From: Pedobacter sp.
GTDB taxonomy: Bacteria; Bacteroidota; Bacteroidia; Sphingobacteriales; Sphingobacteriaceae
Reading direction: 5' to 3'
NCBI GenBank assembly: GCA_014378705.1
Contig: JACMND010000066.1
Span: 91,260-125,716, forward strand
Length of the DNA: 34,457 bases
The position numbers and the translations under genes were made by a program. Below the pieces are notes generated by a model. That model was not told the origin of the DNA. It did not search any database and saw only the letters and a list, made by a program, of their open reading frames with translations. This document shows, piece by piece, positions 5,636-32,695 of this stretch (position 1 is the first letter of the stretch; each line of letters opens with the position of its first letter).

Positions 5636-8600
5636 TTAGAATGTTGCTTGAATCCCAAAATTATAATTTGGCTGGCTGTTTGGGTAATTTCCATAGTCAA
5701 TACCAAAAGAAGTGTTGTTTCCTGATAACTCCGGATCTAATCCGGTATATTTTGTGATGGTAAACAAATTAGCTCCCTGAGCATATATTCTTAACCTATT
5801 GATGCCGTAACGGTTTAACAACGCCGGTTTTAAAGTATATCCTAAAATTAAAGATTTTAATCTTAAATAAGAACCATCTTCTTTATAATAACTATTAGGC
5901 ACACCATTGTTACTGAAATTACTATTGTTCTCCGCTATCGGCGTAGTACCTGAAGTATTGGTAGTTGACCAAGAATTATATAAAGCATCTTTACTTTTCG
6001 CTCCCTGAAAGGATGGGAAAAAATCAGTCCACCAGCGCACGTAATTGATTACGTCGTTACCCTGGGAACCATAAAGAAAGGTACTAAAATCGAAACTTTT
6101 ATAACTCGCACCTAAGTTAAGCCCATAAGTAAAGTCCGGGTTCGGGTTACCAAAAAAAGTACGGTCTTTGTCGGTAATGGTTCCGCTTCCGTCTACATCC
6201 CTGTACTTAAAGCGCCCAGGTGCTGCTGCATCCTGAGTAGGTGAAGCCGTTACTTCGGCTGCATTTTGAAAAATTCCAGCAACTTCGTATCCGTAAAAAG
6301 CTCCGATAGGATTTCCAATTTGATTCCGGGCGAAGTTGCCGATGCGGGTTCCGCCTGCATCAAAATAATCACCGGGTATATTTGTAATGTTACTGTTGTA
6401 AGTGGTTAAGATAACACCCAGATCATACGAAAAATCAGAGTTTACTTTTCCGCGATAATTGGTAGTCAAATCAATCCCTTTGTTTTCAACGTTACCAACG
6501 TTAACTGTGGGCCTTGAGGCACCACCTACTGTAGCCGGTAAAGGCAAAGCAAATAATAATCCTTTAATGGATTTTTTATATAATTCAACAGAAATATCAA
6601 ATTTATTATTGAACAAAGTTGCGTCAAAGCCTAAGTTGCCGATTTTATTTTCTTCCCAACTTGTTGCAGGGTTACCAATTGAAGCTGCATTAAATCCAAT
6701 GATAGAACTATTATTGACACCATTGATATCATAATAAGAGCCACCAGGGCTTCCGCCAAACAGGGTGAACGCATTAGTTGGATTAACATTCGCTTGTGCT
6801 CCTAAAATACCGTATCCACCTCTAATTTTCATATCATTAATCCAGGAAATGCCTTTCATAAAAGGTTCATTGGATATTCTCCATCCGGCAGTAACAGAAG
6901 GGAATATACCATATCTACTTTCTGGTCCAAATACCGAAGATCCATCTCTTCGAATAGTTGCACTGAATAAATACTTGTCATTAAACTGATAATCCAGACG
7001 GCCGATTAAAGAAAAAAGAGAGTTTTGATACGCATAACTGTAATTGGTCTGACCTGTAGGGCTACCGTTTGACAAGTTTCTAAAGTTTGGATCATTGCTG
7101 AACAAGTTAAAACGTTGACCTCCTACTCCGCGGCCATAATAATCAACTGCCTCGGTAGCCGCAAAGACTTTAAGTACATGTTTTTCTGCAAAGGTATCTG
7201 AATAGGTCAAACTGTTTGTCCAGGTATAGTTCCTGTTATAACTTGAATTTTCGGTGTAGTTATTCTGGCCAATGTTTTCTGCATTTTCATATGTGCGGAA
7301 CCCAAAGCCATAATTATAACCAAGGTTTAAAACACCTCCAAAACTTGTTCTTGCAACTACTTTTTTAAATAAATCAGTTTCCAAAAATACATTTCCCTGT
7401 ACATCCCATTGATTCCCCTTATTATCTTTTACCCTTGTTCTGGCAGCTACCGGGTTTGTACCCTGGCCTAACCTGGCACCTGCACCACCACCGAAGTTGC
7501 CATTTATATCATAAACAGGAACAATTGGTTGTGTACGGTAAGCATTAGAAATCTCATTTCCCTCGCCTTGATTTCCAATCTGCGGGTTATCCCGATTGAA
7601 TACAAATAGGTTTTCGCCTATCCTGATTTTGTCTTTTACGTTAAATTGAGTGTTTATCCTTGCTGAATAACGCTTTAAATAAGTATTTAAAAGCGTACCC
7701 TGCTGATTAAAATAAGCGCCTGAGAATAAATAAGAAGATTGGTCACTTCCTCCGCTTGCGGTAACCGAATGGCTCTGTATAGGCGCAGGATTAAAGATTT
7801 CATGAAACCAATCTGTTCCCTCCTTGTTGGCCTTTACAATTTGATAAGATGGTTTTGTAAAATCAATATTGTACAAAGCCGGGTTTACCGACGGATCACC
7901 TTCTTTAGCTCCACTTGGCAAAATGTAATCAGGCAAAACCGGATCTATCCCACTTCCATACTGTGGATGCTCGGGGTTACCGGTAACCGCGTTAACCTGA
8001 CCGGAATTGCGATACGACAACCAGGTAAGATCAGCCATTTCCTGTGGTTTTAGAAGAGGAAATCCCTCTTTTAATGGAAGCTGAGTTCCATAATAAGCAT
8101 CGTAAGTAATTGTTGGTTTACCACTACCTTTTTTAGTGGTAACAACTATAACGCCATTCGAACCACGTACACCATATACAGCTGCCGCACCGGCATCCTT
8201 TAAAACCTGAATGGATTCAATGTCATTTGAATTTAAATTGGTTAAACTACCCTGTACACCGTCTACCATTACCAATGGATCTGTGTTACCAAATGAAGTA
8301 ATACCCCTGATACGCACATTACTTCCTGAACCAGGGTTACCTGAGGTAATAATGTTTAAACCTGCTGCACGGCCCTGTAACATTTGTTCCGGGCTTCCTG
8401 CAGGTACTGCTTTCAGATCTTTTACGTTTACGACAGAAACAGAGCCTGTAATATCCTTTTTCCGTTGTGAAGAATAACCAGTTACTACAACTTCGTTCAA
8501 ATCATTTGCAGAAGGATTTAAAACAATGTTGTAATTTGTTTGAGAGCCAATATTGATCTCTCTGGTTACATAACCCAGATAAGTGATCGTTAATACATCG

Positions 8601-25216: not shown

Positions 25217-27184
25217 TCAGTTATAAAACTTCCAGCTTAAACCAAATTTTAATAAAGCATCCTGCATCGGATAACGGTTTACTGTATAAAAACCTTCTGA
25301 CGGAAAACCCTGATTCGCATAATCGTATTTTAAAAACAAGCTGGTCCGTTTTAAATTCGCTTTAATCCAAAGGTCTACGACCGGTACCGTGGGATACTCA
25401 ATCGCGGCATTGTTGTTATAAAACTGGCTGGTATTTAAGGAGTAAGCCGGATTTTGATACGGGGTATTAAACCGAACGTCAAATCCCAAATTAGTGCGAA
25501 GCACTTTAAATAAGTTAACCGCAAAATATAAACTGTTATATGTATATATTTCAGGTGTACGCAAAACATTCTGGTAGTCTGTCTTTTGATAAACGACGTA
25601 ATTTTCAAGATTAAATTTACCCACTTTAAAATTTTTACCTACGCTTATTTTTATTAAGTTAATTCCCTTTTCAAGCTGGGCGGGTTGTATCTGCCGGTTT
25701 ATCGCCGTTTCTTGATAGTACAGGTAATTATCAACTAAATAATATTCCGCTTTAGCAGATAGACGAAATTTCGGATTTTCATATAAAAAAGAAAGGTTAT
25801 TGATCTTCGTTCGCTTTAAGCTTTGATCCCAGTTATGGAACTGATAATTTACTCTTTCATACATCTGTTCCGGGGATTTATTTTGGGAATACGCCCCTAA
25901 AACAATCCGGCCAACAGATTTACTTAGCAGGATACTGGTATTGGCCTGATATAAAAAATCGCCTGCATTTCTTCCCTGGGCAATTTGTTGTAAGTCAGCT
26001 TCAATATTAACCCGGTCACTAAAGCGGTACCCGATTCCGGCTTTTAAGGTAATATTTTGAAAATTGATTTTATAAGCCATTTGCTCATAATGATACAGGT
26101 CATGCTGAAGCCCAAGGTCTAACTTCACTTCGTTCTTAAGAAAGCCAACCGTTTTTCCTCGCAGGTAAAAGCTGTAGGCAAATTCATTTCGCAGGTTTTT
26201 AACAAGTGTGGAATCATTTGTAAACGCAGAATCTTGTGCAGCAATATCGGGCAAAGCTCCTAAATTATCATCCTCATTCCTAAAAAAACGATACCGGTTT
26301 GTGTTATAAGATATCGAGTGCGATACCCTTTGAGTTGGGAGAATGAGCCCGCCCGAATTTTCAGACTTTAGCGTGTCTATCCTGCCGATGTAATAGTATT
26401 GCTTCAGAAAAAAACTTTTTTGCTTCCATATCTGCTGCGGCCTGTTCAACCCGGTTGCATCAAACCTCACTATTTCCGCATCTTTTCTTAACGTAACGGA
26501 ATCCGTAAAAATATTATCGTTTGTTGTTGATCCATTTTCCCCTGCTTTTATTGTATTAAACAGCACATTGGCCAGCAGATTATATCGTTTATTTGGTGAT
26601 TCAAACCAGCTAAATACCGAAGCATTTAAATGATCTGCATTCTGGTTATTGTAAAACCCTTCAGATCCGATACGGAAATAATTGGCGCCCACGTTAAAAT
26701 TCGGCTTCACGTTTTGGGTGTGCGTTACCCTGAAAATTTGTTCCTGAAAGCTGCCATTAACATAATACAATTCGGTATAGGGAGAACGGGCCCGGTAATA
26801 ACGTATATCATTTTGAGTTAGCAGATAAGGGTCGAGTGCATGAAAACCGGCGTCAAACCCTATATTTTTTGACGGCGTAAATAATAGGTCACGAACCGAG
26901 ATGCCTAAACTTCCTAACCCAATAGTTGGCCTTTGCGGCTGATATAACGGGCTATAATTTTGAAAATTAACTAAAGAGGTATCAATCTGCCTGGTTTCGG
27001 TAGACTTATTCAAAATATCACGGGTGGTATAACGGATGTATTTTGCAGTATAAATTATTGAATCTTCGGAGCCTTCTTCTTTACTCCGCAGAGAATCCAG
27101 AGACCCGGTATTTTGCTGGGCGTATAAATTACCACCCGCTGTTATCAAGATAAGTGAATATAAAATATATAAAAGGCTCTTCAT
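25217..27184 (-). CDS. Putative porin, outer membrane beta-barrel (655 aa)
   Basis: A signal peptide (about 1-22, ending GNLYAQ) is followed by a polar N-terminal stretch. Then comes a marked segment (YQPQRPTIGLGSLGISVRDLLF ... GFDAGFHALDPY) that is typical of the Bacteroidota 'putative porin' family. The rest consists of alternating amphipathic strands with abundant Tyr, Asn and Phe, ending in LKFGLSWKFYN with a C-terminal aromatic girdle strand, as expected of an outer-membrane barrel. No plug domain or TonB box is present, so transport would be passive. Its ATG overlaps the purine nucleoside phosphorylase stop by one base, making it the last gene of the lpxK operon. A nucleoside channel is an attractive idea from context only. 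Confidence 0.82.
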   Translation of the reverse strand: MKSLLYILYSLILITAGGNLYAQQNTGSLDSLRSKEEGSEDSIIYTAKYIRYTTRDILNKSTETRQIDTSLVNFQNYSPLYQPQRPTIGLGSLGISVRDLLFTPSKNIGFDAGFHALDPYLLTQNDIRYYRARSPYTELYYVNGSFQEQIFRVTHTQNVKPNFNVGANYFRIGSEGFYNNQNADHLNASVFSWFESPNKRYNLLANVLFNTIKAGENGSTTNDNIFTDSVTLRKDAEIVRFDATGLNRPQQIWKQKSFFLKQYYYIGRIDTLKSENSGGLILPTQRVSHSISYNTNRYRFFRNEDDNLGALPDIAAQDSAFTNDSTLVKNLRNEFAYSFYLRGKTVGFLKNEVKLDLGLQHDLYHYEQMAYKINFQNITLKAGIGYRFSDRVNIEADLQQIAQGRNAGDFLYQANTSILLSKSVGRIVLGAYSQNKSPEQMYERVNYQFHNWDQSLKRTKINNLSFLYENPKFRLSAKAEYYLVDNYLYYQETAINRQIQPAQLEKGINLIKISVGKNFKVGKFNLENYVVYQKTDYQNVLRTPEIYTYNSLYFAVNLFKVLRTNLGFDVRFNTPYQNPAYSLNTSQFYNNNAAIEYPTVPVVDLWIKANLKRTSLFLKYDYANQGFPSEGFYTVNRYPMQDALLKFGLSWKFYN

Positions 27185-27999
27185 TACAAGGTGTTGATCA
27201 ATTTTTTTAGGATCAGGGTCATTTTTGGTTCGGCTTGTATTGCGATCTTAATAATTTCTTCTACAGAAACCGGTTTAAGCGTTTCCGGAAACCCCTCATC
27301 CGTTATAACAGAGATGGCGAAAACAGGTAAACCCATGTGATTGGCAACGATTACTTCTGGCACGGTACTCATACCAACGGCGTCCGCGCCAATTATCCTC
27401 AAAAACCGATACTCTGCTTTTGTTTCCAAATTAGGCCCGCTTACAGAAACGTAAACTCCTTTATGGCAAGTAATATTATTTTGGCTGGCAATGTCCATCC
27501 CCAACCGGATCATCTCAGGATTATAAGGCTCGCTCATATCCGGGAACCTGGGGCCCAGCGTTTCAGAATTTCGTCCCCGCAAAGGGTTATCCGGAAGCAT
27601 GTTGATGTGATCTTCGATAATCATCAGGTCGCCTTTGAGGTAATCCGGGTTTAGAGCGCCGCTTGCGTTTGAAACCAACAATTGTTTAATTCCCAACATT
27701 TTCATTACTCTTACGGGGAAGGTTATCTGCTTCATATCATACCCTTCATAATAATGCAACCGCCCCTGCATGGCTACTACGCGTTTGCCACTTAACATTC
27801 CAAAAATTAGCTTACCGGAATGAAATTCAAGTGTAGAAATTGGAAAATTAGGGATGTTAGAATACATTAGTTTATGATGTACCTCAATCTCATTTACCAA
27901 TCCGCCCAAACCTGTGCCTAAAATAACTCCAATCTCAGGTTCAAATTCACCTGTTTTACGCTTTATGTATTCTGTTGTTAATTGAATGTTCTCTAACAT
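27184..27999 (-). CDS. punA: Purine nucleoside phosphorylase, trimeric class
   Basis: Phosphorolysis of purine nucleosides to the free base and (deoxy)ribose 1-phosphate, for salvage. The phosphate loop GTGLGG (28-33), His60 (EFHSGKL), GRLHYYEGY (79-87), NASGALNP (111-118), EDHINML (129-135) and the base/sugar site SVSGPNLETKAEYR (185-198) with Met210 match the PNP/MTAP family. The base-recognition position that is Asn243 in human PNP (ITN) appears here within VITDEG. The Asp may affect preference between 6-oxo and 6-amino purines, but the alignment is by eye. Length (271 aa) is normal. Its first 44 bases overlap the end of lpxK, and its stop overlaps the porin start. Confidence 0.94.
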   Translation of the reverse strand: MLENIQLTTEYIKRKTGEFEPEIGVILGTGLGGLVNEIEVHHKLMYSNIPNFPISTLEFHSGKLIFGMLSGKRVVAMQGRLHYYEGYDMKQITFPVRVMKMLGIKQLLVSNASGALNPDYLKGDLMIIEDHINMLPDNPLRGRNSETLGPRFPDMSEPYNPEMIRLGMDIASQNNITCHKGVYVSVSGPNLETKAEYRFLRIIGADAVGMSTVPEVIVANHMGLPVFAISVITDEGFPETLKPVSVEEIIKIAIQAEPKMTLILKKLINTL

Positions 28000-29114: not shown

Positions 29115-30020
29115 ATGAAAACTGCCCTAATTATAATCTTCCTCGTTTTAAATTACACTTTTGCATCTGCGCAGGCAATTGATAAAAAATTAAACGCAAA
29201 ACTTCAAATTTTAGTTAAAGGCTTTAGCGGCAAGGCCGGTATTTATGTGCTGAATTTAAAAACCGGAAAAACAGCTTCAATAAATGCCGATACTCTATTT
29301 CCAACCGCCAGCATGATCAAAATTCCGATTATGTGCGGCGTAATGAGCGAGATAGAAAAAGGAAATTTGAGTTATCAGCAACCTCTGATCTATCGAGATA
29401 GCTTACTGTATGAAGGTGAAGATATTTTAGGGTCTTTTAAAGACGGTGAAAAAATAAGTTTAAGCAAAGTGCAAATGCTTAGCATCACAACCAGCGATAA
29501 CACAGGCAGTTTGTGGTTGCAAAAATTAGCTGGCGGCGAGAACATAAATAATTGGCTGAGATTAAATGGTTTTGAAAAAACACGTGTTAATTCCCGAATC
29601 CCGTCAAGGATAGCGGACCGTGAAATTTATGGCTGGGGACAAACATCACCTAAAGAAATGGCGAATTTAATGGTGATGATCCGAAACGGAAAGGCCGTTA
29701 ATCCCGCAGCCAGCGAGCGGATGTACCGAAACCTGATTCGCATTTATTGGGATGGTGAGGCATTATCACAGATTCCACCATACGTACAGGCCGCGTCTAA
29801 ACAGGGCGCCGTTGATCAATCGCGTTCTGAAGTGGTTCTGGTAAATGCGCCACATGGAGATTATGTTTTTTGTGTGATCACTAAAAACCAATCTGACACG
29901 AGTTGGGAAGACAGCAACGAGGGCTTTGTGCTAATTAGAAATCTCTCTACATTGTTGTGGAGTTATTATGAACCGAAATCAGATTGGAAACGGGCAAAAG
30001 GAATTGAAAAGTATCATTAA
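29115..30020 (+). CDS. Class-A beta-lactamase-related serine hydrolase (301 aa)
   Basis: Exported penicillin-recognising fold. I chose the ATG at 29115, which opens directly on a signal peptide (MKTALIIIFLVLNYTFASAQ); the longer frame relies on a TTG at 29094. The nucleophile motif is SMIK (Ser66, Lys69), the SDN loop is at 127-129, and the third motif is KQG (229-231) in place of the usual KTG. The omega-loop region before TSPKEMANLM shows no ExxLN motif, so the general-base Glu of true class A beta-lactamases appears to be absent. A role as a carboxypeptidase, esterase or weak lactamase is more likely than strong drug resistance. It is divergent from lpxK and precedes the glycosyltransferase gene by 41 bases. 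Confidence 0.87.
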   Translation: MKTALIIIFLVLNYTFASAQAIDKKLNAKLQILVKGFSGKAGIYVLNLKTGKTASINADTLFPTASMIKIPIMCGVMSEIEKGNLSYQQPLIYRDSLLYEGEDILGSFKDGEKISLSKVQMLSITTSDNTGSLWLQKLAGGENINNWLRLNGFEKTRVNSRIPSRIADREIYGWGQTSPKEMANLMVMIRNGKAVNPAASERMYRNLIRIYWDGEALSQIPPYVQAASKQGAVDQSRSEVVLVNAPHGDYVFCVITKNQSDTSWEDSNEGFVLIRNLSTLLWSYYEPKSDWKRAKGIEKYH

Positions 30021-30061: not shown

Positions 30062-30763
30062 ATGATCAGTGTAATTATTCCAACACTCAACGAAGAAGAT
30101 TATGTAGCCAACATCATTTATTTTTTGAGAGAATGCGAAAATGAAAGTATACCGCTTGAAATAATAATCAGCGATGGCGGAAGTACTGATCAAACCATTT
30201 CAATAGCTGAAAAGGCCGGTGCTGATTTGGTATTAAGATCTGGGAAAAAAGGAAGGTCAGCTCAAATGAATTTTGGGGCTTTCTATGCCAAAGGCGATAT
30301 TCTTTATTTTCTACACGCCGATACTTTTCCTCCAGCTAATTTTGCCATGCAAATTAACCATGCGGTAAAAAACAAATGTAGTTCAGGTTGCTTCACATTG
30401 AGATTTGATCATACGCATTGGTTTTTAAAAACCAATTGCTGGTTTACCCGTTTTAATGTGAATGCTTTCCGCTTTGGTGATCAAAGCCTTTTTGTTAACC
30501 GGAAGCTCTTTAACTTTGTTCATGGTTTTTCTGAAAAACATTTTTTATTGGAAGATCAGGAAATAATCACCCGGTTAAAGAAAAATAGCCGGTTTGCGGT
30601 TATACAGGAACCAGTCACCACTTCGGCACGCAAATATCTGCAAAACGGTATCTATAAAACACAGGGAATTTTCTTTTTGATTTATTTGATGTACAGGTTG
30701 GGAGTTGGGCAGCAAAATTTACTTAACACCTATCGAAAACTGATCTGCCAGGACAAACTTTAA
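30062..30763 (+). CDS. GT2 glycosyltransferase, TIGR04283 (arsenosugar-type) family (233 aa)
   Basis: GT-A fold glycosyltransferase. SVIIPTLNEE (3-12), SDGGSTD (37-43), GRSAQMN (64-70), the metal site variant HADT (85-88), FGDQ (138-141) and EDQE (164-167) match the small TIGR04283 group. That group was named after a proposed role in arsenosugar synthesis. The C-terminus carries an aromatic, hydrophobic stretch (GIFFLIYLMYRLGVG) that may touch the membrane. No arsenic methyltransferase or ArsS-type radical SAM gene is in the window, so the arsenosugar link is not supported here. It ends 4 bases before the flavoprotein gene and is the likely first member of a three-gene unit with it and a fatty acid hydroxylase. 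Confidence 0.88.
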   Translation: MISVIIPTLNEEDYVANIIYFLRECENESIPLEIIISDGGSTDQTISIAEKAGADLVLRSGKKGRSAQMNFGAFYAKGDILYFLHADTFPPANFAMQINHAVKNKCSSGCFTLRFDHTHWFLKTNCWFTRFNVNAFRFGDQSLFVNRKLFNFVHGFSEKHFLLEDQEIITRLKKNSRFAVIQEPVTTSARKYLQNGIYKTQGIFFLIYLMYRLGVGQQNLLNTYRKLICQDKL

Positions 30764-30767
30764 GCCG

Positions 30768-31838
30768 ATGAAACCAAATGACGAAAATGCAAAACTTCCA
30801 CCCGGACAACGCCCTTTCCGGATACTGCTTATTTCGGGCTCTGCCAGACGACAGTACAACTGCCCGGGCGTTGATTCAAAATCACGTACGCTGATGCTCC
30901 GTATGGCCGAAATGCTGCCGCCCGACTGGGAAATTGATTATGAAGACCTGGGAAACGTTTACGGTCGTGAAAAGATACAGAGCTGCAATGCTTGTGTTTC
31001 TTCATCCATGGCATTGTGTGTCTGGCCCTGCAACTGTTACGCCAAAAACGATAAAAAAGAGCCCGACCTGATGTGGAACCTGGATATGTATGCCCGGCTG
31101 GATATGGCAGATGCCTGGGCAATTATAGGCCCGGTTAACTGGTATAGCTGCTCATCAAATTTAAAGCTGATGTTTGACCGCCTGGTTTGTATGAACGGCG
31201 GTAACCCGGACGAAAAAACCATTAACCATAAAAATCCTGAAAAAGCGATGGCGCTGGAACATGCCCCGCAATGGAAGGAAATGAGCTTAAACCATCTTGA
31301 AGGAAGAACGGCCGGCTTTTTTTGTTACGGAGACGAAGGTGGTGATGAACTGGATGTAAGCGGCCGCCCGAAGATACTGGAAAATCCAAATTATTTTGAT
31401 CCGGAAAACGAACCCTTTGAAAATGTACGCGATGCCTATGCTCCGCTGGTGTGGCAATGCCGGTATGGCGGCGTAGAAGTTCCGGACAAGCTATGGCTTT
31501 ATTGTACCAGTGGGAAAAACAAAAAATACAGCGATAACCAGGCGGAAGACATGATCGGCGAGGATCAGTTTATGCAAACTTTTGATAACTGGGCGCACGA
31601 ATTTGAAGCTTTTGTTGTTAAAAAAGGAAAAACAAAACCCAATAAATACCGGGCTTACGGTTTTAAAGCGCCATCACATTTTTTGGCCAATATCCAGGAT
31701 GGCATGCGGTATTTCAGGATGATGATTGGCAAAGCACCAAAAGGTTCATCACCACGGCAACAGCACCGGCTAAACCTGAATAAAGATGCTACCTGGCAAA
31801 CCAAAAAAGGCGAAGGGAAAAAGTTAAGAAAAGAGTAA
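30768..31838 (+). CDS. Flavodoxin-fold NAD(P)H-dependent oxidoreductase, Cys-rich (356 aa)
   Basis: FMN-dependent reductase. The FMN phosphate loop is ISGSARRQYN (22-31), and GPVNWYSCSSNLKLMFDR (121-138) is the second flavin contact, as in NADPH-dependent FMN reductases. Residues 73-90 hold five cysteines in the order C73-x2-C76-x7-C84-x3-C88-x-C90, a density suggesting a metal or iron-sulfur site like that of iron-sulfur flavoproteins, though the spacing is not theirs. The protein is longer than usual (356 aa). Its C-terminal third (from about 265) carries DNWAHEFEAFV and a basic tail without known motifs. No signal peptide; cytoplasmic. Its stop overlaps the start of the hydroxylase gene by one base, so the two products may act together. 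Confidence 0.85.
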   Translation: MKPNDENAKLPPGQRPFRILLISGSARRQYNCPGVDSKSRTLMLRMAEMLPPDWEIDYEDLGNVYGREKIQSCNACVSSSMALCVWPCNCYAKNDKKEPDLMWNLDMYARLDMADAWAIIGPVNWYSCSSNLKLMFDRLVCMNGGNPDEKTINHKNPEKAMALEHAPQWKEMSLNHLEGRTAGFFCYGDEGGDELDVSGRPKILENPNYFDPENEPFENVRDAYAPLVWQCRYGGVEVPDKLWLYCTSGKNKKYSDNQAEDMIGEDQFMQTFDNWAHEFEAFVVKKGKTKPNKYRAYGFKAPSHFLANIQDGMRYFRMMIGKAPKGSSPRQQHRLNLNKDATWQTKKGEGKKLRKE

Positions 31839-32695
31839 TGGAAATAATCACCGAGGTATTTGATAAAGCGGGTGCAGCAATTTTAGCCACATTTTTCATC
31901 CTGTTTTATTTCGCCGAAAGCCAGTGGCCGTTGCGGCATCGCGTGCAAAAGCGCTGGCAACGAATCTTAATTAATGTCGCGGTAGCCATTCCTTCTTTTG
32001 CTTTATTACGGCTGCTGCTGATAACCACCTTGGTTTGGCTGGCCATAATAAATCAAGACATTCAGTTTGGCCTCAATTATTTATACGATGCCCCAGCATG
32101 GATAAAAGGTTTTATTGCATTTCTGGTTTTAGATTATAGCAACTATTTATGGCACGTCGTGAACCATAAAATCCCGTTTCTCTGGCGTTTCCACCTGGTA
32201 CACCATACCGATCACGATCTGGATCTCAGCACCGCTATCCGGTTTCATTTTGGCGAGTTAATTCTTTCGGTTTTCTTTCGAGGTCTGGCGGTTTTTTTAA
32301 TCGGCGCTTCTCCCCTAACCGTTTTAGTTTACGAAATTGTTTTCGAAACCGCCACCCAGTTCCATCACACCAACATGCGGTTGCCTCTGCGTTTCGAAAA
32401 AACACTGAACAAACTGCTGGTTACGCCCCGCATGCACGGAATCCACCATTCGGTTATACGCCACGAAACAGACAGTAACTACGCTGTTATCTTTTCCTTT
32501 TGGGATCGCATGCACCGAACTGTCCGCTTAAATATCCCCCAAAACGATGTAAAAATTGGTGTTGCGGTTTACCCGGATAAAAAAGAATTAACCACTTGGT
32601 ATTTACTTAAACTGCCTTTTACGGCGGTGAGGGGATGGAAGGATGAGGAAAGGAAGGTAGGCTTGAAAGGTGAGAAAAAGGAAATGAAATTTTAA
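31838..32695 (+). CDS. Fatty acid hydroxylase / sterol desaturase family membrane protein (285 aa)
   Basis: Integral membrane di-iron oxygenase of the FA hydroxylase superfamily, which hydroxylates or desaturates lipids using oxygen and electrons. Four or so hydrophobic helices (about 13-28, 45-70, 90-106 and 140-168) flank the His clusters. These are HVVNH (His106, His110), HLVHH (His119, His122, His123), HH at 176-177, and HGIHH (His200, His203, His204), the full set of iron ligands. The last 25 residues are rich in Lys and Glu, from a purine-rich stretch of DNA. The ATG overlaps the stop of the preceding flavoprotein gene (TAATG), suggesting translational coupling and perhaps a redox partnership. 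The substrate is unknown. Confidence 0.92.
   Translation: MEIITEVFDKAGAAILATFFILFYFAESQWPLRHRVQKRWQRILINVAVAIPSFALLRLLLITTLVWLAIINQDIQFGLNYLYDAPAWIKGFIAFLVLDYSNYLWHVVNHKIPFLWRFHLVHHTDHDLDLSTAIRFHFGELILSVFFRGLAVFLIGASPLTVLVYEIVFETATQFHHTNMRLPLRFEKTLNKLLVTPRMHGIHHSVIRHETDSNYAVIFSFWDRMHRTVRLNIPQNDVKIGVAVYPDKKELTTWYLLKLPFTAVRGWKDEERKVGLKGEKKEMKF

Follow-up and report, generated by a model that had tools for sequence, protein, structure and literature searches.

SsArsS and SsArsM of Synechocystis are credited in one report with the first steps of arsenosugar biosynthesis (PMC8552651), and another ascribes the adenosylation of arsenic in this pathway to a radical S-adenosylmethionine (SAM) enzyme (PMC12159101). 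Knowledge of arsenolipid metabolism is called limited in one study (PMC7345539), and a study on an alga refers to several yet unknown pathways (PMC11009773). Here we analyze a stretch of 34,457 nucleotides from Pedobacter sp. (assembly GCA_014378705.1, contig JACMND010000066.1, positions 91,260 to 125,716; hereafter the window, with the genome designated G000), which contains a three-gene operon for a TIGR04283-family GT2 glycosyltransferase (GT), a Cys-rich flavoprotein and a membrane hydroxylase. This operon probably encodes distal, accessory functions of an arsenosugar pathway; the core genes (aCMD, ArsS, TIGR04282, and ArsM) lie on another contig of the genome. The literature searched contained no paper with TIGR04283 and none with both arsenosugar and fatty acid hydroxylase, and no such operon is named in the available parts of PMC13171826, PMC8787705, and PMC8801600.

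The operon and the arsenosugar genes of the genome

The operon is located on the forward strand and begins with the GT gene (30062..30763; 233 aa, clade A of its family), which is followed by the gene of a 356 aa flavoprotein of the FMN_red type, apparently an exchangeable redox partner (30768..31838), and by that of a 285 aa di-iron membrane hydroxylase of the FA_hydroxylase family, whose subfamily co-occurs with ArsS (31838..32695). The gaps of 4 and -1 bases given in a preliminary description of the window agree with the coordinates of the open reading frames (ORFs): four bases separate the first two genes, and the second and third overlap by one base (TAATG). Against the curated hidden Markov model of TIGR04283 the GT scored 227.2 bits (cut-off 182), which places it in this family, and its partners ArsS, ArsM, and TIGR04282 were found in the same genome on contig C146. 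On this contig aCMD (TIGR04169, 194 bits), ArsS (TIGR04167, 455 bits, cut-off 300), TIGR04282 (209 bits), and an arsenosugar-type ArsM (NF038099, 521 bits, cut-off 400) are consecutive on one strand, each above its curated cut-off.

Apart from the GT, no arsenic gene was seen in the window, and the preliminary description had taken the lack of such genes as a sign that the arsenosugar name of the transferase family may not apply. This premise holds within the window and is rejected for the genome by the gene set on C146; since ArsS, ArsM, aCMD, and TIGR04282 are present, the family name is most likely appropriate here. The window GT was the sole TIGR04283 protein found in G000, so that the arsenosugar set of this genome is complete only when it is counted.

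The three families neighbor one another in other genomes as well. In G133 and G115, which belong to one genus, and in G088 they are contiguous within a single cluster, aCMD-ArsS-TIGR04282-TIGR04283-flavoprotein-hydroxylase, and one extra gene interrupts them in L002, a locus of a Chitinophagaceae metagenome-assembled genome (MAG) with the order purine nucleoside phosphorylase (PNP)-DUF547-TIGR04282-TIGR04283-flavoprotein-CMD protein-hydroxylase. As the order GT-flavoprotein-hydroxylase recurs in G133, G115, G088, and L002, the association of the three genes is not due to chance and is real. The last two genes are also found, overlapping and in reversed order (hydroxylase-flavoprotein), in L004, from a MAG titled Cyanobacteria.

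In a family sample of 399 genomes, taken as the same for all three counts because handles and counts agree, ArsS was detected in 40 genomes, and the carriers of the flavoprotein (5 genomes) and of the hydroxylase subfamily (7 genomes) all fall within this group of 40 (hypergeometric 8e-6 for the flavoprotein and 6e-8 for the hydroxylase, or 8e-5 and 6e-7 without G000, shared ancestry being ignored). Counted by genus, with ArsS in 8 of 25 genera, the coincidence is 4/4 for the flavoprotein (0.0055) and 5/5 for the hydroxylase (0.001). The hydroxylase subfamily was delimited at an E-value of ~1e-100, a cut set after the gap between 4e-100 and 3e-49 had been seen; the nine weaker matches (3e-49 to 9e-46) belong to genomes outside the 40.

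The membrane hydroxylase and the glycosyltransferase clades

The hydroxylase belongs to PF04116, against which it scored 86.5 bits (cut-off 31), and the full histidine motif is present in 16 of 16 aligned homologues. Its only NCBIfam match was OlsE (NF052566), at 56.2 bits compared with a cut-off of 475, which leaves it outside that family, and a PDB search with the hydroxylase profile gave no match.

In a maximum-likelihood phylogeny built from 30 TIGR04283 proteins, a split at 99/97 separates 16 rows, named clade B, from the remaining 14. Clade A denotes these 14 minus the long-branched protein of G691, which entered neither clade count; the tree omits the second TIGR04283 copies of G199, G238, G367, and G691, and the model search covered five genomes in addition to the 40 with ArsS. 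The hydroxylase subfamily was found in 10 of the 13 clade-A genomes and in none of the 15 clade-B-only genomes (Fisher 2e-5, ignoring shared ancestry). Since G803, G804, and G806 had entered via the flavoprotein search, they were left out of a separate count on the family sample alone, which gave 7/10 versus 0/15 (Fisher 2.5e-4), and 6/9 without G000 (6e-4). These counts support the link between GT and membrane hydroxylase that the preliminary description had envisaged. No hydroxylase was found in the clade-A genomes G012 and G199, and the third exception, G367, has a divergent hydroxylase as a neighbor. Of the 13 clade-A GT genes, 5 are directly followed by a flavoprotein gene, 4 by a disulphide oxidoreductase gene and 1 by the hydroxylase gene; 2 have none of these as the next gene, and behind the GT of G062 the contig ends. 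Judged by the clade counts, the varied genes after the GT and the shuffles given below, the hydroxylase evidently tracks a type of GT, and the redox protein is interchangeable.

The place of the flavoprotein is occupied by a MerA/lipoamide-dehydrogenase-like enzyme in G162, G199, G367, and G806. The order in G162 is aCMD-ArsS-TIGR04282-TIGR04283-disulphide oxidoreductase-108 aa membrane protein-hydroxylase, and G062 has the same order across two contig ends (L154 and L155, which are not one sequence), with a MIP channel and ArsM in the cluster. A disulphide oxidoreductase also stands directly after the GT in G367, which continues with a membrane protein and the divergent hydroxylase, and in G199, which is without these. 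Locus L005 of G806 reads ArsS-PiT-like transporter-ArsM-PNP-TIGR04282-TIGR04283-disulphide oxidoreductase-109 aa membrane protein; the hydroxylase of this genome comes after a broken flavoprotein gene, at a distance of ~11 kb from the GT. G128 shows TIGR04282-TIGR04283-hydroxylase without a flavoprotein and with ArsS on another contig, and in G804 the flavoprotein, the hydroxylase, ArsS, and TIGR04283 are all on separate contigs. The disulphide oxidoreductase genes lie at L151 6125-7887 (-), L154 7818-9574 (-), L199 1173-2941 (-), and L200 4952-6388 (-), and in three of these four loci a membrane protein of 106-111 aa comes next.

Clade-B TIGR04283 is followed in L198 by a 352 aa protein (7276-8334) that looks glyoxalase/VOC-like by eye, as read in L198 only; ORFs of the same size are present in L169, L171, L174, L175, and L177, with a divergent DUF547 gene on the other side. 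The DUF547 protein (L002 498-1175; L128 2462-3247; L151 1806-2600) recurs near aCMD-ArsS and clade-B TIGR04283 and is a neighbor in 11 of 34 ArsS loci.

The GC content at third codon positions (GC3) is 0.479 in the flavoprotein gene and 0.490 in the hydroxylase gene, compared with 0.355 in the GT gene and 0.266-0.438 in the other genes of the window. Up to and including the GT, the gene order of the window matches that of G012, a genome of the same genus and the only one among 60 relatives with a close GT copy; there the GT is in the same place, with no flavoprotein or hydroxylase behind it. The ArsS region of G000 matches the order in G012 too, except for ArsM (by eye). The GC3 contrast and the empty place in G012 suggest either a recent arrival of the flavoprotein-hydroxylase pair behind a resident GT or its loss in G012, two histories between which the poorly resolved trees of the two proteins do not discriminate. 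The extension of the arsenosugar cluster is apparently accessory and mobile. Contamination of the draft genome (3.13%) is an unlikely source of the GT, given that the gene order through the GT matches G012. The flavoprotein and hydroxylase genes are close to a contig end and without an equivalent in G012; for them, an assembly error is countered only by the recurrent order elsewhere.

Upstream of the operon and on the same strand, a class A beta-lactamase-like gene (29115..30020) stops 41 bases before the GT, an arrangement kept in G012. Its product is above the Pfam Beta-lactamase2 cut-off but does not reach that of any of the 25 NCBIfam models listed; the gene is possibly co-transcribed, and no membership in the pathway is claimed for it. 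A PNP gene on the reverse strand (27184..27999) is probably a housekeeping gene, with an only possible role in the pathway.

The flavoprotein and competing explanations

The sole Pfam match of the flavoprotein is to PF03358 FMN_red (30.7 bits, just over the cut-off of 24); it is N-terminal (residues 18-147) and comprises G24, S25, and R27, which are invariant in 12 rows. The protein has 11 Cys, 7 of them invariant across 14 aligned homologues. Modelled with AlphaFold2 with a view to the flavodoxin-like fold, four similar flavoproteins gave a mean pLDDT (predicted local distance difference test) of 31. A PDB sequence search gave one weak match (E 0.96) with the flavoprotein alone and three weak matches with a 12-row profile, the best being 1t0i at E 0.0039. 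All searches together yielded ten genomes with a close flavoprotein (G000, G088, G115, G133, G169, G691, and G803-G806), of which 8 have the hydroxylase subfamily, 7 have ArsS over the cut-off and 9 have TIGR04283. In a phylum-wide sample of 395 genomes it occurred only in G000 and G691, and a search of 117 genomes from the phylum of L004 gave G805 itself and one distant match. Plasmid searches returned only relatives below 60% identity, and the two annotated regions of 12.5-12.8 kb around the related rhizobial and Polaromonas proteins, whose gene tables are incomplete, were without such an operon and without a hydroxylase or GT annotation.

In G169, one of the lone flavoprotein copies is preceded, ~5.6 kb upstream, by a histidine-rich membrane protein of 201 aa (L077 1869-2474), by eye FA-hydroxylase-like and of another subfamily, and an ArsM-related methyltransferase (L129 8681-9751), below the ArsM cut-offs listed, comes after ArsS and is flanked by TIGR04282 relatives that are below the cut-off. 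In G691, TIGR04283 is found beside two proteins resembling other radical SAM enzymes (L197 234-5263), together with weak relatives of TIGR04282 and DUF547; this genome has no ArsS over the cut-off, and the locus perhaps serves a different product.

Several observations weigh against assigning the operon to the arsenosugar pathway. The two halves of the pathway sit on different contigs in G000. The hydroxylase subfamily is missing from 33 of the 40 ArsS genomes and TIGR04283 from 15, including 10 of the 12 ArsS genomes of the same genus, so that both are dispensable for ArsS. The PNP of the cluster could possibly act as an arsenate reductase instead, by analogy with mammalian PNP, for which arsenate reduction in vitro is reported (PMC12608789), and the PNP of G806 matches an inosine/guanosine-type model. 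Three of the ten flavoprotein genomes, all of them drafts (G691, G803, and G805), lack ArsS over the cut-off, and G805 has hydroxylase-flavoprotein with no TIGR04283 match; an arsenic-independent use is possible. Finally, among ten hydroxylase-labelled GTs the presence of the flavoprotein is unclustered on the GT tree, as shuffling gave values as low in 254 of 500 trials.

The preliminary description had suggested that the flavoprotein and the hydroxylase are an electron-donor/oxygenase pair. Their adjacency does recur, the two genes being adjacent or one gene apart in 7 of the ten genomes with the flavoprotein, among them that of L004 with its reversed arrangement, but an obligate pair is rejected, as each gene occurs without the other: G169 (two flavoprotein copies, with ArsS; contamination 7%) and G691 have the flavoprotein but not this hydroxylase, and G128, G162, and G062 have the hydroxylase but no flavoprotein. 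This mutual independence, the MerA/lipoamide-dehydrogenase-like enzymes in the flavoprotein slot and the seven invariant Cys speak for a flavoprotein that acts on arsenic and not on the hydroxylase. It would then be an NAD(P)H-dependent oxidoreductase of methylated or ribosylated arsenicals with an ArsH-like role, its Cys cluster binding arsenic or a metal center, an alternative that we take seriously without preferring it. The recurrent adjacency argues against it, as does the result that no NCBIfam family matched the flavoprotein at E <= 0.001 and hence not the ArsH model, which NCBIfam includes; ArsH itself belongs to PF03358. An arsenic-acting flavoprotein is a variant of the arsenosugar assignment that differs in the role of this protein only.

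A larger departure is the arsenic-free glycolipid or hydroxylipid pathway of the preliminary description, in which the GT name would be a misnomer. G803 and G805, with flavoprotein and hydroxylase genes and no ArsS over the cut-off, and the TIGR04283 of G691 beside genes resembling other radical SAM proteins would fit it, and members of the FA_hydroxylase family act on ordinary lipids. We consider it unlikely in view of the four arsenosugar genes on C146, the single clusters of G133, G115, and G088, in which ArsS, aCMD, and TIGR04282 accompany the three genes, and the co-occurrence with ArsS in 5/5 and 7/7 genomes of the family sample. What stands of that proposal is the recurrent neighborhood of the three families and the coupling of GT and hydroxylase, in a pathway that is more likely arsenic-related. 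Hardly credible is a flavoprotein-hydroxylase pair that merely hitchhikes behind the GT as mobile DNA with no shared function; the GC3 values of the pair, the GT of G012 without it and the patchy distribution would be explained, but the pair follows the GT in the same order in L002 and in g1, g4, and g7, which are three genera of the family, the reading frames overlap or touch, and among the genomes compared the hydroxylase is limited to those with a clade-A GT.

Proposed pathway and comparison with known systems

Gene content, operon structure, co-occurrence, clade coupling, and conserved motifs were observed directly, and the assignment of the operon to the arsenosugar pathway is well supported; the substrate, the product and the partner of the flavoprotein are putative, as are all steps after ArsS, including the acceptor and the target of hydroxylation. 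In the proposed route, ArsM would form dimethylated arsenic and ArsS would add the 5'-deoxyadenosyl group, both steps being known from the work of others. A nucleoside phosphorylase may then strip the base from the arsenonucleoside, a phosphorolysis suggested by the PNP inside the G806 cluster; candidate genes for this removal of the base from the ArsS product lie between ArsM and TIGR04282 in G806 (L127 2213-3031 (-)) and upstream of DUF547-TIGR04282 in L002 (1-501 (+)). CofC-like TIGR04282 would activate arsenoribose-1-phosphate to a nucleotide sugar. The TIGR04282 protein of G133 matches Pfam CofC at 35 bits (cut-off 22) and DUF2064 at 118 bits, and with the CofC match nucleotide activation of a sugar phosphate fits better than glycosyl transfer. 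Transfer of arsenoribose to an acceptor of the glycerol or lipid type is the predicted reaction of the window GT. The membrane hydroxylase, which fits a lipid-linked product, would oxygenate the lipid or aglycone of the arsenoribosyl compound. The flavoprotein would serve as a redox helper, either delivering electrons to the di-iron site or controlling the redox state of arsenic, either role being possible in view of its independence in G169 and G691 and the MerA-like enzyme in its slot.

A more specific version, which we put forward only tentatively, is a bacterial arsenolipid pathway in which PNP, TIGR04282, and clade-A TIGR04283 would convert the ArsS product to activated arsenoribose and attach it to a membrane lipid or isoprenoid, and a dedicated di-iron hydroxylase with an exchangeable flavoenzyme would give an undescribed hydroxylated arsenoribosyl lipid. 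For the later part of arsenosugar metabolism, about which little is known, the cluster supplies candidates in a definite gene order (PNP, TIGR04282, clade-A TIGR04283, the hydroxylase, and exchangeable flavoenzymes) and a predicted class of products, hydroxylated arsenoribosyl lipids or aglycones.

Among known systems, the NADPH-dependent FMN reductases (PF03358) resemble the window flavoprotein in the N-terminal FMN_red match with its invariant G24, S25, and R27, whereas the latter is Cys-rich, 356 aa long with a long C-terminal region, and without an NCBIfam match. The rhizobial and Polaromonas proteins named 'flavodoxin family protein' are 37-38% identical to it and share the seven invariant Cys, but differ at the N- and C-termini. 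OlsE and other PF04116 enzymes have the superfamily, the histidine motif and the hydrophobic segments in common with the window hydroxylase, which is unlike OlsE in its score (56 bits versus 475) and in its position with arsenosugar genes. All five members of the named arsenosugar set (ArsM NF038099, ArsS TIGR04167, TIGR04169, TIGR04282, and TIGR04283) exceed their curated cut-offs in G000. In contrast to that set, the genes of G000 are split over two contigs, and the flavoprotein and hydroxylase are additional to it, as the former has no NCBIfam match and the latter only the OlsE match below the cut-off. We regard the locus as a new form of arsenosugar cluster, in which a putative hydroxylation branch extends beyond the known gene set.

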